A stretch of DNA of 64,000 bases from assembly GCA_016756835.1 (NCBI GenBank), contig JAESPE010000005.1, positions 1-64,000 of the forward strand, read 5' to 3'. The notes under the pieces are model-generated. The model was given only the letters and a program-made list of their open reading frames with translations. It had not been told where the DNA came from and made no database searches. The stretch is from a gamma proteobacterium endosymbiont of Lamellibrachia anaximandri. Its GTDB lineage: Bacteria > Pseudomonadota > Gammaproteobacteria > Chromatiales > Chromatiaceae. Below are positions 5,447-58,305 of this stretch, one piece after another; position 1 is the first letter of the stretch; each line of letters starts with the position of its first letter. The translations under genes and the position numbers were made by a program.

Positions 5447-6016
5447 TTAATCCTCCAGGAGACGTCTGACCGGCCCGAATGAACGACGGTGGATCGGCGT
5501 GACACCCAATTCCCTGAGCGCCTCCAGATGCATCTTGGTGGGGTAGCCTTTATGTCTCGCCAGACCATAACCGGGATAGCGCTGATCCATCTCCACCATC
5601 TCCCGGTCACGGGCAACCTTGGCAATGATGGAGGCTGCACCGATCGCTTTGACACTGCTGTCGCCGCCGATGATCGCCTCCACCTCACAGGACAGGCTTG
5701 GAACATGTTTGCCATCCACCAGCGCCTTGTGCGGTGACATATGCAACGCTTCAACCGCCCGCTGCATAGCCAGCAGACTGGCCTGAAGGATATTGATCTC
5801 GTCGATCTCCTCGACCTCCGCACGCCCAAGCGCCCAGGCAAGGGAGCTTTCGCGAATCAACCCGGAGAGGATTTCACGGCGCTTTTCACTGAGCTTTTTG
5901 GAATCCGCCAAACCCTCTATCGGGTTTGCCGGATCGAGAATCACCGCAGCAGCCACCACGGGACCCGCCAATGGCCCACGTCCCACCTCATCCACGCCGG
6001 CAATGAAAAAGTCCAT
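5447..6016 (-). CDS. rnhB: Ribonuclease HII
   Basis: N-terminal [23 protein letters not shown]; lies downstream of lpxB. Confidence 0.95.
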
Positions 6017-6031
6017 CTCAGAACTCCTTTT

Positions 6032-7171
6032 TTATTGATCGATAAGTGCCAACACTGCATCCGCAGCACGGTTTGCGGCATCACAACGCAACCCTTCGTG
6101 CAACTGCCGATATCTAGCGACGACGTCAGCCCGCCTGGCCGGTGATTCGAGAAAATCGAGCAGCGCCTGCCCAAGCACTTCCGGCCTGACCTCACCCTGT
6201 AGAAACTCCGGTGCGAGGCGCTCTTCAGCAATCAGATTGGCCATCGCCATGTGGGGGATCTTCACAAGATTGAAGGTCTTTACCAGCCAGTATGTCAGAG
6301 CTGCCAACCGGTAACCTACAACCATTGGACGTTTCAATAGAAGTGTTTCCAGCGTCGCAGTGCCCGAGGCAGTCAGCACAACGTCAGCCGCCTGGATCGC
6401 CTTACGCGCCTCGCCATCGAGCAGGATGATGGGTAGATCCGGCGCAACCTCAACCATCTGCTCAGAAAAAGCTGTCCGAATCTTCGCGTTCACCATCGGC
6501 GCCACAAATTGCAGCTCAGGATGGCGCTGCAAACACCAGATCGCAGTCTGCAAAAAAGGCGCCGACAGCATGCCGAGTTCACTCATGCGGCTGCCGGGCA
6601 GAATCGCAATAACGGGGCGGTCGGGATCAAGCCCCAGCTCGGATCTGATGCCTTCCGGCGCTGTCGACTCAAAGGGAATCTCATCCGCCAAAGGATGCCC
6701 CACATAGTTGGCGGTTACACTGTTCCGTTGGAGAAAACCCACTTCAAAGGGGAAGATGCATAACATCAGATCCACTGCCCGGCGCAGTTTTTTTACGCGC
6801 TTCTGACGCCAGGCCCAGACGGTCGGACTGACAAAGTGGGCAGTCCGGATACCCTCGGCTTTGAGTCGGGTTTCCAGCGCCAGATTGAAATCCGGCGCAT
6901 CCACACCAAGAAAGAGGTCCGGGGGGTCAATCTGGAAATGGTGGAAAAGCCTGCGCCGCAGAGAGAGCAGTCCCGGCAGGTGCTTCAGCACCTCCACCAG
7001 CCCCATCACAGGATCCATGCGTGCCAGACTCTTGCAGCCTTCGGCCTCCATTGCAGGACCGGTCATACCCTCAAAGCGTAATTCAGGCCGTTTTGCCTTC
7101 AGTGCATGGATCAGGGAGGCGGCGAGTTGATCACCGGAGACTTCATTGGCGACTATACCAATTCGAGTCAT
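6032..7171 (-). CDS. lpxB: Lipid-A-disaccharide synthase
   Basis: GEVSGDQ-like N-terminus (VANEVSGDQLAASL), PTVWAWRQKRVKK; overlaps lpxA by 1 nt. Confidence 0.95.
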   Translation of the reverse strand: MTRIGIVANEVSGDQLAASLIHALKAKRPELRFEGMTGPAMEAEGCKSLARMDPVMGLVEVLKHLPGLLSLRRRLFHHFQIDPPDLFLGVDAPDFNLALETRLKAEGIRTAHFVSPTVWAWRQKRVKKLRRAVDLMLCIFPFEVGFLQRNSVTANYVGHPLADEIPFESTAPEGIRSELGLDPDRPVIAILPGSRMSELGMLSAPFLQTAIWCLQRHPELQFVAPMVNAKIRTAFSEQMVEVAPDLPIILLDGEARKAIQAADVVLTASGTATLETLLLKRPMVVGYRLAALTYWLVKTFNLVKIPHMAMANLIAEERLAPEFLQGEVRPEVLGQALLDFLESPARRADVVARYRQLHEGLRCDAANRAADAVLALIDQ

Positions 7172-51249: not shown

Positions 51250-51582
51250 TTAGATGCAGCCAGTAGGCTTGGGCAGACCGGCAAAACGGCAAGCCTGTTT
51301 ACCAGGACCGTAAGGGAACAGACCGTACAGGTACTTGCTGTTGCCCTTCTCTTTGCCCAGTTTCTTACCAACAGCCTTGGTCAGAACGCGAACAGCTGGA
51401 GCAATCTGGTACTCTTCGTAGTATTCACGCAGGAAGTTAATGATATCCCAGTGCTCATCAGTCAGCTCAAGGTCATCTTCCTTCGCCATCTCTTCTGCAA
51501 CTACGGGCTCCCAATCAGCCAGAGTTACCAGGTAACCCTCTTCGTCAGTCTCAAAAACTTTACCGTTAGCTTCGATAGCCAT
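51250..51582 (-). CDS. dsrC: DsrC sulfur-carrier protein
   Basis: C-terminal KQACRFAGLPKPTGCI with both conserved cysteines. Confidence 0.97.
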   Translation of the reverse strand: MAIEANGKVFETDEEGYLVTLADWEPVVAEEMAKEDDLELTDEHWDIINFLREYYEEYQIAPAVRVLTKAVGKKLGKEKGNSKYLYGLFPYGPGKQACRFAGLPKPTGCI

Positions 51583-53993: not shown

Positions 53994-55235
53994 TTACTTG
54001 GCTTTGCGCTCAGCCCACTTGGCAGCTTCCTCATCCCAGTTGTCCATACGGACATAAGGATTGGTGCGAGGCTGGGCGATCATATTCGGATCGATCTCGA
54101 TACCGATACCTTCCAGGAAGTTGGTCAGACCAATACGTTCGATCATCTCACCGGTACGTTCGTGCTCCAGTGCGTTCTCTGCAAAGAAGTCCAGAACTTC
54201 GGTACCCAGCTCTTCCAGCCATTCGAAATCCTCATCGGTTTCCATCTTGTGGAAAGGCACGATTACGGTACCCATCAGATCGCCGATCTTCAGAGTACGC
54301 TTACCGCCAATCAGAACGCTGACGCCACCATCATCACCCGGAGAGAGGGCCTTGTTCATGACGTTCAGGCAGTGCATGCAACGCACGCAGTTGCCGTTAT
54401 CAACCGCCAGGGTATCGTCGTCGTTCAGTGAGAGCGCCTGAGTCGGGCAGCGGGTGATGACATTGTCGATCACATACTTGCGGCCTTTGTTCTCCACGAA
54501 AGCCTTGACCTCAGCCTGGTCGACCTTCATGTCGTCGCGCCATGTACCGATGACAGCGAAATCAGAACGATGAATGGCGTTCATGCAATCGTTCGCGCAG
54601 CCGGAAACCTTATACTTCATCTTGTAAGGCAGAGCCGGACGATGCAGGTCGTCAAGCGCATTGTTCACCAGGGTACGCATTGCCCGGCCTTCGTCGAAGT
54701 TGGACTGCTCGCAACGGGCAGCACCGACGCAGGACATGGAGGTACGCACGGCGGGACCCGCGCCGCCCATGTCAAAGCCCATCTCATTGATTTCATTAAA
54801 GAATGGCTGAACGTTCGCAGAGGAGCAACCCTGGAACATGATATCGCCAGACTGGCCGATACCGCAGATCAGACCGGATCCGTACTTCTCCCAGATATCG
54901 CACATGTCGCGCAGTGTCTTGGTATCGAAGTGAGAGCCAGGAGGTGGCATGATGCGAATAGTGTGAAATTCAGCCGCATCAGGGAATTTGGGGGTTCCGT
55001 CCTCGTTCTTCAGCTCGGTAAAGCGGGGGATGACACCACCACCGTAGCCTACAACACCAACGGTGCCGCCCTTCCAGTAGCCCTTCTTGGTCTCGTAGGA
55101 GGTCTCCAGCTGACCCAGCAGGTCAACTGCAATGTCGTTATCTTTCGCAAGGCGCTTGATACCGCTGATAAAGCTCGGCCAAGGGCCGCTCTCCAGCTGA
55201 TCAAGCATGGGGGTGTCATGCATCTGTTTTGCCAT
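53994..55235 (-). CDS. dsrA: Dissimilatory sulfite reductase alpha subunit (oxidative type)
   Basis: MAKQMHDTPMLDQLESGPWPSF, MSCVGAARCEQSN, KYKVSGCANDCMNA, CVRCMHCLNVM. Confidence 0.96.
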   Translation of the reverse strand: MAKQMHDTPMLDQLESGPWPSFISGIKRLAKDNDIAVDLLGQLETSYETKKGYWKGGTVGVVGYGGGVIPRFTELKNEDGTPKFPDAAEFHTIRIMPPPGSHFDTKTLRDMCDIWEKYGSGLICGIGQSGDIMFQGCSSANVQPFFNEINEMGFDMGGAGPAVRTSMSCVGAARCEQSNFDEGRAMRTLVNNALDDLHRPALPYKMKYKVSGCANDCMNAIHRSDFAVIGTWRDDMKVDQAEVKAFVENKGRKYVIDNVITRCPTQALSLNDDDTLAVDNGNCVRCMHCLNVMNKALSPGDDGGVSVLIGGKRTLKIGDLMGTVIVPFHKMETDEDFEWLEELGTEVLDFFAENALEHERTGEMIERIGLTNFLEGIGIEIDPNMIAQPRTNPYVRMDNWDEEAAKWAERKAK

Positions 55236-55449
55236 CACTCTTTCTCCCAATGGTCGTTTGTGTAGGGTATTTGGCCGATTGATATCCTGTTTTAATTAGC
55301 CCGGCCATAACACCGTGCGCAGGAACAGCCTCTTCCCCTGCAATACATTACCGCTGCAGGTTGAAGACCTGCTCCTACTGGCGGCCAATTTTAGGAGTTC
55401 CTAATGCAGCACCATATCCTTCCGATGGGGGGGGGGTCCGGCTTTCTTC

Positions 55450-55465
55450 TATCCCATATGGGATA
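55450..55465. promoter_or_regulatory. 16-bp perfect palindrome, candidate operator in the divergent dsr intergenic region
   Basis: TATCCCATATGGGATA. Confidence 0.45.
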
Positions 55466-55698
55466 TATGCAATCGCTCCACGATGTATTGCACACTCAAT
55501 CAGTGGCACTAAATATCTAACAATTACAATTAGTAAGAAAATATAATTGAGTTTGCAGACATATAAACGACCGTAAATCTCAATAAGCTATATCCCCATT
55601 AATAGAATATGATTGAGTCAACAATCTGGATAACGCACTACATAAATACCTCATGAATAGTTGAGTAATTTACTATGTAATCGCGTTCCCCAATTCGT

Positions 55699-55704
55699 TA
55701 TAAT
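55699..55704 (+). promoter_or_regulatory. Candidate -10 box for the plus-strand accessory operon
   Basis: TATAAT, 42 nt upstream of the sORF ATG; weak -35. Confidence 0.4.
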
Positions 55705-55745
55705 CTCACCCCTGAAACAATTTTGAGCCAAGCGTAACCCAAACA

Positions 55746-55922
55746 ATGCTCTATCTAAGTGAAGTAATGATGCAGAATCCTGACTTCGAGACATTTGAAC
55801 AGCTTCAGATCGCCGTCAAGGAGCGCTCGAAAACAGAGATGTTTTTCCGCATTGACGTAAAACCACCCTATCCGGATACACCGGAGAACTGGGAAGACCG
55901 ACTGGAAGCCAGTTTTACCTAA
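55746..55922 (+). CDS. 58-aa small ORF (absent from the supplied ORF track)
   Basis: MLYLSEVMMQNPDFETFEQLQIAVKERSKTEMFFRIDVKPPYPDTPENWEDRLEASFT, uninterrupted, followed 26 nt later by the 236-aa ORF. Confidence 0.5.
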   Translation: MLYLSEVMMQNPDFETFEQLQIAVKERSKTEMFFRIDVKPPYPDTPENWEDRLEASFT

Positions 55923-55948
55923 CACTTGTTACACAACGAGAAGTACCC

Positions 55949-56659
55949 GTGAAATATCTCGAATCAGAAACCTTCATCGGTGATGCCGAATGCTCAGATG
56001 ATGCCGTCAAACCGACCCAGCAACTTGAGCAACGCCTCAAAAAACTGCTGGGAGAAGTCAGCGCACTCCCAAACGATATCTCTGTCGAACAACGCCTCAA
56101 GCCCATCCTTGAGAGCGGCTATATCATGCTCGATCTTGACCGCCTGGATGAAGCCTGGGAGATAACCCGCCCCACACTTGACCAAGCCATATCAGCCGGG
56201 TTGTGGCTGCAGGCGGTCGAAGCCTGCGACATTCTCTATCAGACCGGCAATGACAACGCCCTCAGAGCGCTGGCCCACGGTATCTGGCTCGGTGTCACCT
56301 TCCCCATCGAACCGGGACTGAGCGTCGCCATGCTGCAGCACCTGGTCGACGAGACACCGGACAACTCCGATGGCGCGGCCGTTGCCGCCGCCACTGCCGG
56401 CTATATCGTGGACATGCGTACCGAGGAGCCGGATCGGGAAGAGTTGAAGTTTTTTACCAACCAATTGATGGGCCAGGTCGCCCGCCGCCACAGTCAGGTC
56501 GAGGAGCAGGAGATCTTCGATTTTTGGGTGGAGCGCATGGAACTGGATGACCCCTCCAAGTTTTTACCCCGACTGGCCCAGGTGCTGGACATCGTCAACG
56601 AAGACGGCTGGTGGTTCGATCGCGATAAACTTCGAGATCAGATTCCTGCGGATCAGTAA
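55949..56659 (+). CDS. Conserved hypothetical, probably all-helical, 236 aa
   Basis: GTG start; tight spacing with the next ORF. Confidence 0.75.
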   Translation: MKYLESETFIGDAECSDDAVKPTQQLEQRLKKLLGEVSALPNDISVEQRLKPILESGYIMLDLDRLDEAWEITRPTLDQAISAGLWLQAVEACDILYQTGNDNALRALAHGIWLGVTFPIEPGLSVAMLQHLVDETPDNSDGAAVAAATAGYIVDMRTEEPDREELKFFTNQLMGQVARRHSQVEEQEIFDFWVERMELDDPSKFLPRLAQVLDIVNEDGWWFDRDKLRDQIPADQ

Positions 56660-56674
56660 CTCATAGAGACCCAT

Positions 56675-57334
56675 ATGTTCTGGCAAGAGGAAAGTGATGA
56701 GACGGTCTATGTCGTACCCGACGATGTAATAGACCTTGCCTACCAGATGAAGTGCCGGGCGCTGCCGGTCGATCACGCCTGGCCGCTGGCTTCAGCGATA
56801 CATCAGGCACTGCCCTGGTTTGCCAAGGAGCCGCAGGCAGGCTTGCACCTCATATACGGCGCCGACTCCGGCAACGGCTGGGAGCGTCCCCAGGATGCCG
56901 CTGACACCCTCTATCTCTCACGCCGCACCCGTCTTATCCTGCGACTACCCAAAGAGCGCCTCCCCGACGCCGAGGCCCTCACCGGTCAGACCCTGGACGT
57001 GGCAGGCAATCTACTGACGATCGGCAAGGGCATCCCCCGACTGCTTGGCATGACCACCACCCTCTACTCCCGCTTTGTCGTGGACGAAACGGACGGGGAC
57101 GAGGATCAGTTTATTTCAGCAGCTGTCAAAGGTCTGCACGCCCTGAATCTGCGCTTCAAGAAAATACTCAGCGGCAGGCCTTTCGCCTTCTCCACACCGG
57201 AAGGTGAGATTTCGACTCGGAGTTTGATGGTAGCCGGCCTGTCCCTGAATGATGCAGTGAGACTACAGGAGAACGGCCTGGGTCCCCTCCGAAATCGCGG
57301 ATTCGGCTTGTTCGTTCCCCAAAAGTCTGTTTAA
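56675..57334 (+). CDS. Cas6/Cmx6-like RAMP-fold protein (type I-MYXAN Cas6 family-like)
   Basis: N-terminal VIDLAYQMKCRALPVDHAWPLASAIHQALPW, YGADSGNGW, LYLSRRTRLILRLPKERL, C-terminal glycine-rich loop GLGPLRNRGFGLFVPQK. Confidence 0.7.
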   Translation: MFWQEESDETVYVVPDDVIDLAYQMKCRALPVDHAWPLASAIHQALPWFAKEPQAGLHLIYGADSGNGWERPQDAADTLYLSRRTRLILRLPKERLPDAEALTGQTLDVAGNLLTIGKGIPRLLGMTTTLYSRFVVDETDGDEDQFISAAVKGLHALNLRFKKILSGRPFAFSTPEGEISTRSLMVAGLSLNDAVRLQENGLGPLRNRGFGLFVPQKSV

Positions 57335-57413
57335 TATATAGCGTTTTAATGATTTTCTTGATTGGCGGGTGTATGCAAGTCATCCGTCACAAATGCACAC
57401 GAAGGAGAAATCA

Positions 57414-57758
57414 ATGTCGTACGAAGTAAATGGCGCAACCGTCGAGGCCGACGATCATGGTTATCTGGTCAATTCAGCCGACTGGAATGAGGATGTCGCC
57501 AAAGCCATCGCCGCTGCCGAAGGTATTGAGCTGTCCGAAAAGGGTTGGGATATCGTCAACTACCTGCGGGATGAGTACCTCAACAACAACGGTAACCAGC
57601 CCAATGAACGCAACATGGTCAAGCACTTCAAGAAAGTCTGGACCGACATCCCGAAAATGGACACCAAGGTACTCTACAATGAGTTCCCCACTGGCCCTGC
57701 GAAGCAGGCGGGGAAGATTGCCGGTACGCCTGAGACCAAGCGTAAGGGCGGTTATTGA
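57414..57758 (+). CDS. DsrC/TusE/RspA family paralogue lacking both C-terminal cysteines
   Basis: GYLVNSADWNEDVAKAIA...LSEKGWDIVNYLRDEY aligns with DsrC; C-terminus KQAGKIAGTPETKRKGGY has no Cys. SD GGAGAA upstream of ATG at 57414. Confidence 0.9.
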   Translation: MSYEVNGATVEADDHGYLVNSADWNEDVAKAIAAAEGIELSEKGWDIVNYLRDEYLNNNGNQPNERNMVKHFKKVWTDIPKMDTKVLYNEFPTGPAKQAGKIAGTPETKRKGGY

Positions 57759-57833
57759 TCTTTAAGGCTAAAGGTGGCCGTGCCAATGGATGGGCCGATC
57801 ACTGGCATTTCTACCGTTGGTGACTGAAGGTCC

Positions 57834-57922
57834 GTAGGCCGGTTCAAGCGTAGCGGAACCGGCAACCTATCTCGCTCTGCCAAAGCCAGGATGCCCGATC
57901 CGCTACGCTTGATCGGGCTTAC
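57834..57922. repeat. REP-like palindrome doublet
   Basis: GTAGGCCGGTTCAAGCGTAGCGGAACCGGCA (57834-57864) and inverted TGCCCGATCCGCTACGCTTGATCGGGCTTAC (57892-57922). Confidence 0.8.
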
Positions 57923-57927
57923 AAGCC

Positions 57928-58305
57928 TTAGCCTTTAGCCTCCAAAATCGCCTCCATATCCGCCTCCCGAACAGGAAAAGTGCAAACACCAAACAGCGGA
58001 TAGCGCTGCTGCACCTTATCGAGCCGGTATTGGTGATTGGGATCGTATAGGACAATGACCCGACTATCAGGACTGTATTTCTGCAGGGTCGCCATCAGCG
58101 ACTCAAGGTTACTCATCCGGTCACGGAACTCCGGATCAAAATTAAACTCCGTAACCACCACTACAGGTGTGTGCTTTTTCAGCCAGGCCTGCGCCTTTCG
58201 CACCGAATTGACCATCTCGACCTGATAGCCGTGGCGTTGATAGAGCGGTGTAAAGTTGGGATAGCCCCCAAACTCCACCACCGCAAGTAATTCCTGATCT
58301 TTCAT
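57928..58305 (-). CDS. Receiver-domain-like protein of 125 aa, probably lacking the phospho-acceptor Asp
   Basis: Alternating alpha/beta pattern; beta-3 region VVVVTEFNFDPEF. Confidence 0.5.
   Translation of the reverse strand: MKDQELLAVVEFGGYPNFTPLYQRHGYQVEMVNSVRKAQAWLKKHTPVVVVTEFNFDPEFRDRMSNLESLMATLQKYSPDSRVIVLYDPNHQYRLDKVQQRYPLFGVCTFPVREADMEAILEAKG

Follow-up and report, generated by a model that had tools for sequence, protein, structure and literature searches.

A cysteine-free DsrC-fold protein encoded with a Cas6-like protein beside the reverse-Dsr genes of sulfur-oxidising Gammaproteobacteria

Introduction

Purple sulfur bacteria, SUP05 and animal symbionts owe their sulfur oxidation to the reverse-Dsr pathway, the control of which is poorly understood. 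In a 64,000-nucleotide stretch of the genome of a Lamellibrachia symbiont (hereafter the window), a gene lying close to the dsr cluster encodes a DsrC homologue that lacks the redox cysteines of DsrC, which raises the question of what such a protein might do there. The RspA group of the DsrC superfamily, reportedly described by Venceslau et al. in 2014, is said to combine the DsrC fold with the loss of both conserved cysteines and has been proposed to be regulatory. A role of DsrC itself in transcription regulation has been cited (PMC7787665), and DsrR is reported to participate in the regulation of sulfur oxidation (PMC11406059).

Results

RspA is a conserved protein that has lost both redox cysteines

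The features of the window on which the analysis draws are as follows.

51250–51582, minus strand: canonical dsrC, with both arm cysteines (KQACRFAGLPKPTGCI), within dsrABEFHCMK
53997–55235, minus strand: dsrA, start of the divergent dsrABEFHCMK cluster
55450–55465, no strand assigned: 16-bp palindrome TATCCCATATGGGATA, consensus TATCYC-NWWN-GRGATA, about 215 nt upstream of dsrA
55746–55922, plus strand: orf59, small conserved protein of 58 residues (ending in FFRIDVKPPYPDTPENWEDRLEASFT)
55949–56659, plus strand: orfX, all-helical TPR-like protein of 236 residues (predicted model, pLDDT 88.3)
56675–57334, plus strand: cas6L, Cas6-like protein of 219 residues with a Cas6 fold, G-rich loop and invariant His34 (profiles, predicted model, invariant columns)
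57402–57407, plus strand: AAGGAG ribosome-binding site of rspA (direct sequence reading)
57414–57758, plus strand: rspA, cysteine-free DsrC-fold protein of 114 residues with C-terminus KRKGGY (PF04358, conserved tail, monophyly, dN/dS)

Direct reading of the sequence places the ATG of rspA at 57414 and its stop codon at 57756–57758, with not a single cysteine in all 114 residues of the product. The protein belongs to the DsrC/TusE/DsvC superfamily, scoring 108.5 bits against the PF04358 (DsrC) profile (cut-off 24.9) and 93.5 bits against TIGR03342 (cut-off 53.5), so that a preliminary description of this DNA was right to call it a DsrC paralogue without either redox cysteine. The alignment with canonical DsrC that was also described there spans residues 1–107 at 41% identity; the coordinates given for canonical dsrC were correct, its minus strand having been left unstated. 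RspA lacks the two C-terminal arm cysteines that mark DsrC as a sulfur or trisulfide carrier, and the earlier statement that it cannot carry a trisulfide is a direct consequence of the sequence. Nor is it a TusE, since glycine occupies the position of the penultimate TusE cysteine, and the score against the TusE equivalog profile is 80.7 bits (cut-off 191). A DsrC fold with neither conserved cysteine is what characterises RspA, a label that we take to fit this protein.

The cysteine-free end is a shared trait of the whole group. The RKGGY tail was found in 80 of 80 named RspA orthologues and in 31 of 31 orthologues from relatives, ruling out a 3′ frameshift that masks cysteines, which the preliminary description had named as the finding that would overturn its claim. 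In a phylogeny of the DsrC family, as had been suggested there, RspA orthologues form one clade separate from canonical DsrC (support 96/96), in a tree built on only 113 columns and containing three other paralogues as long branches. Comparison of rspA with a 93%-identical orthologue gave a dN/dS of 0.055, indicating strong purifying selection, and values across orf59, orfX, cas6L and rspA range from 0.05 to 0.15; furthermore, RspA and Cas6L are retained by reduced genomes of 1.0–1.5 Mb. From these comparisons, decay and a frameshift can both be dismissed as the origin of RspA. It is common to find more than one DsrC copy, and such copies often carry the plain annotation DsrC or TusE, as would be expected if RspA were an ordinary redundant copy, decayed or with no special role; we regard this as very improbable given the low dN/dS, the universal RKGGY tail, the monophyly and the retention in reduced genomes.

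Relative to canonical DsrC, RspA retains the KQ...AGLP stem of the arm, while the arm itself is two residues longer and both of its cysteines are replaced. The DsrC-invariant stretch YQIAPAVRVLTKA-GKK is absent, and RspA carries a conserved pattern of its own instead (LRdE...nQP..R...W). RspA therefore has a conserved surface distinct from that of DsrC, an argument for a partner of its own.

Further DsrC-family proteins are present in the same genome (4.14 Mb in 263 contigs), which encodes five PF04358 proteins, two of them besides RspA without arm cysteines. The genome falls within the genus of a Lamellibrachia tubeworm symbiont (G004, matching L070), so that its owner is Endoriftia-like or closely related. 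One DsrC-family protein without arm cysteines (L067, G000:C187, 6275–6706) has the C-terminus KTKGEH and follows narHJI-like nitrate reductase genes. Two other DsrC-family paralogues (L069, G000:C113, 5602–6003; L068, G000:C195, 850–1275) comprise one cysteine-free protein and one in which the two arm cysteines are differently spaced (MACRYAGLSVPVGRSCL). A second dsrA-like gene (G000:C68:3389–4621) shares 68% identity with dsrA of the window. In the Endoriftia tubeworm symbiont, several DsrC-family copies have been detected as proteins (PMC7787665), and T. syntrophicum has an extra DsrC-like gene, THSYN_22565, with a locus number just past the dsr cluster; judged solely by that number, this gene may be rspA.

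rspA closes a gene module that is conserved next to dsr

In the window, rspA is the last gene in the order orf59-orfX-cas6L-rspA, which diverges from dsrA (dsrABEFHCMK). The order and its divergence from dsr are kept in most rspA-bearing genera of the family, and the same layout recurs in named Gammaproteobacteria, including Sedimenticola, Thiodiazotropha, the Lamellibrachia symbiont, Thioalkalivibrio, Thiothrix, Lamprocystis, Thiohalocapsa and Thiorhodococcus, with orfX going undetected in some of these named loci (Thioalkalivibrio, Thiothrix). The preliminary description had pointed to the Cas6-like protein as a possible partner and had overlooked the strict conservation of the module as a whole, the more important finding here. 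orf59 is present in the window, in 24 of the 31 loci of relatives and in most dsr-linked named loci, with a dN/dS of 0.048. The product of orfX has no match in Pfam or NCBIfam and none by sequence in the PDB, and its model gave only weak Foldseek matches, mostly to helical-repeat or TPR proteins.

Cas6L and RspA both track the presence of dsrA. Among 369 sampled Gammaproteobacteria, PF09559, the family of Cas6L, occurs in 118 genomes, almost always as a single copy, and dsrA in 118, with 111 genomes having both. RspA, counted when the match reaches the tail, occurs in 110 of the 369, and 103 of these also have dsrA (Fisher p = 5e-76 and 2e-65 for co-occurrence with dsrA, p-values that ignore shared ancestry). 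A full-length RspA match is missing from 15 of the 118 dsrA genomes; since absence was called from a single, stringently thresholded query, some of these may hold divergent copies, and the presence–absence counts are limited by genome sampling and completeness. In a phylum sample, PF09559 was found in 3 of 249 genomes, in all three beside dsr genes. A putative regulatory role for RspA is consistent with a monophyletic, conserved and cysteine-free clade locked beside dsr.

The linkage has exceptions. In Beggiatoa-type and SUP05 loci, and in some from purple sulfur bacteria and Alphaproteobacteria, rspA stands alone with no linked Cas6-like gene, and its neighbours there (signal peptidase, EPSP synthase, CHAD/CYTH and others) reveal no common theme. 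One genome rated 100% complete (G175) keeps orf59, Cas6L and RspA (L188, at the end of G175:C42), and neither dsrA nor a second DsrC-family protein was found in it; the dsr side of the module there ends near the contig end, so a dsr contig may be missing.

The Cas6-like protein is linked to dsr and not to CRISPR

The product of cas6L matches PF09559 at 177 bits and TIGR02807 at 105 bits (cut-off 98.85), and its predicted model (pLDDT 90.5) superposes on the Cas6 of type I-B CAST (8fcu/8fcj) with TM scores of 0.81–0.83. Its invariant columns, H34, G201, G203, G209 and G211, include a candidate catalytic histidine and a G-rich loop, the combination that together with the fold marks a Cas6. Association with a CRISPR array or cas genes is lacking: at this locus, no array adjoins cas6L, and the linkage is to dsr instead of cas. 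Among 14 PF09559-bearing genomes, four (G056, G057, G060 and G064) have no Cas1 match, and the Cas1 matches in the symbiont's own genome are weak or partial and lie on other contigs, which argues that CRISPR is not what keeps cas6L. Thiococcus pfennigii has a second, CRISPR-linked relative beside a 37-repeat array (L202); the dsr-linked proteins have an SGNGWERP loop (invariant G68 and W69) that this CRISPR-linked protein lacks. Pfam, NCBIfam and PADLOC all label the dsr-linked gene at 56675–57334 as Cas6, and because these resources apply this name to a sulfur-oxidation gene, dsr loci are open to being misread as CRISPR.

The loop, absent from the CRISPR-linked Thiococcus protein, suggests a partner other than CRISPR RNA, and the TPR-like orfX suggests protein–protein work. 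Both would suit a module devoted to the maturation or assembly of Dsr proteins, in which RspA is a dummy DsrC and the Cas6 fold a protein-binding scaffold with no nuclease activity. We consider such a unit improbable, as the invariant candidate catalytic histidine and the G-rich RNA-binding loop would be superfluous in a pure scaffold.

A palindrome upstream of dsrA is present irrespective of RspA

The palindrome at 55450–55465 is the sole perfect TATCCC-N4-GGGATA site in the genome, and 43 of 52 named loci have a site with at most one mismatch to the degenerate consensus at a similar position upstream of dsrA. As an RNA hairpin, it favours neither strand clearly (21 GU pairs to 21 mismatches in the orf59 sense, 13 to 29 in the dsrA sense), and the centre of its loop is A/T-rich, making a DNA operator the likelier interpretation of these sequences.

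RspA might accordingly be imagined as a DNA-binding transcription factor acting at this palindrome, all the more so as a genome paper reports that A. vinosum DsrC binds upstream of dsr (PMC5944118). Against this, the presence of the palindrome shows no association with RspA, being just as common where a dsrA genome lacks a full RspA match (9 of 14) as where it has one (15 of 25), in a comparison of hand-picked regions with no random draw, and rspA is kept in G175, where dsrA was not detected. We therefore rejected RspA as the palindrome binder and give a transcription-factor role little credence. The palindrome was absent from all four tested genomes without a Cas6-like gene, a small, non-random sample in which some regions are short or partial.

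Searches for an RNA target yielded no candidate, which speaks against the RNA-directed role of Cas6L that we favour below. We found no conserved Cas6 target hairpin in the gap between cas6L and rspA, and a dsrA-leader hairpin (GCAGGT-CTTCA-ACCTGC in the window) was discarded because it was no better than shuffled sequences and showed no conservation. An Rfam scan of 55200–58000 returned a lone sub-threshold microRNA match on an inverted repeat, which we put down to chance. Between rspA and the gene that follows it lies an inverted repeat (57830–57925, CAAGCGTAGCGG ... CCGCTACGCTTG) that is possibly a REP-like element.

RspA is also encoded on phage-like contigs

RspA proteins with the RKGGY tail are also encoded by two contigs of IMG/VR, in surroundings that look phage-like. 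On one (L252), the gene at 5974–6315 adjoins a Mom-like gene; on the other (L254, 219,676 bp, carrying a head-closure gene), RspA directly follows a canonical two-cysteine DsrC (5643–6339). No Cas6-like gene was found in the examined DNA of these contigs, and since rspA is also unlinked from cas6L in several bacterial lineages, RspA may not need Cas6L. A published survey, which counted five DsrC proteins of phages that lack both cysteine motifs, proposes that DsrC proteins missing at least one cysteine mostly act as TusE (PMC8190135). At least the L252 and L254 proteins belong to RspA instead of TusE, and other cysteine-free phage 'DsrC' sequences may likewise be RspA.

The preliminary description suggested that RspA may be a decoy of DsrAB/DsrC interactions; as a competitive decoy or inhibitor, RspA would take the place of DsrC by inserting its cysteine-free arm into DsrAB or by docking on DsrEFH or DsrK. 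The adjacency of DsrC and RspA on the 220-kb contig speaks for this, as does the retention of the DsrC fold and of the KQ...AGLP stem despite the loss of both cysteines; the arm that is two residues longer with a basic RKGGY end, the replacement of the YQIAPAVRVLTKA stretch, and the persistence of rspA in G175, where neither dsrA nor another DsrC-family protein was detected, do not sit well with it. A decoy is thus possible, though unlikely, and weaker than the adaptor role that we favour.

Discussion

Our best explanation, put forward tentatively, is that RspA is a redox-dead docking or adaptor subunit with a DsrC fold, serving a dedicated module for the control of reverse-Dsr sulfur oxidation together with orf59, orfX and a CRISPR-independent Cas6-type protein. 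It draws on the linkage to dsr, the co-occurrence with dsrA, the single clade, the purifying selection, the new arm and the Cas6 fold. In this scheme, RspA would have kept the DsrC fold and lost its redox and sulfur-carrier chemistry; the Cas6-like protein would bind, and probably cleave, a specific RNA, with a dsr-related transcript as the most plausible candidate; and RspA, by way of its DsrC-like body and invariant RKGGY arm, would couple this activity to whatever state the sulfur-oxidation machinery is in. We infer that the four module proteins are physically associated, that RNA is the substrate and that dsr expression is the output, with control probably exerted post-transcriptionally through the Cas6-like protein.

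More broadly, reverse-Dsr sulfur oxidation across Gammaproteobacteria might be under dedicated post-transcriptional control by a Cas6-type endoribonuclease that has left CRISPR, acting jointly with RspA and with one TPR-like and one small protein, and phages of these bacteria would carry RspA as well, a generalisation that we consider possible and still rather doubtful. A dsr-linked module that pairs a cysteine-free DsrC with a CRISPR-free Cas6 offers concrete genes and a concrete biochemical assay for a pathway with poorly understood control.

In our literature search, we found no description of the RKGGY signature, the operon with a Cas6-like gene or phage-borne RspA, no paper tying RspA to DsrC, and none, among those consulted, tying Cas6 to dsr. 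To the RspA group as proposed, the present analysis adds this signature, the conserved operon and the phage-borne members. Canonical DsrC of A. vinosum (PDB 1yx3) is the top PDB match of the RspA profile (E 1e-29) and shares with RspA the fold and the KQ...AGLP stem, whereas RspA lacks both arm cysteines, has a longer arm and has the YQIAPAVRVLTKA stretch replaced. TusE belongs to the same Pfam family and keeps the penultimate cysteine, where RspA has glycine. Cas6/Cmx6 proteins (PF09559, TIGR02807; Cas6 of type I-B CAST, PDB 8fcj) have the fold and G-rich loop in common with Cas6L, and its candidate catalytic histidine is also present in the CRISPR-linked Thiococcus relative; Cas6L differs from them in residing in a dsr locus with no adjoining array, in occurring without Cas1 and in its extra SGNGWERP loop.
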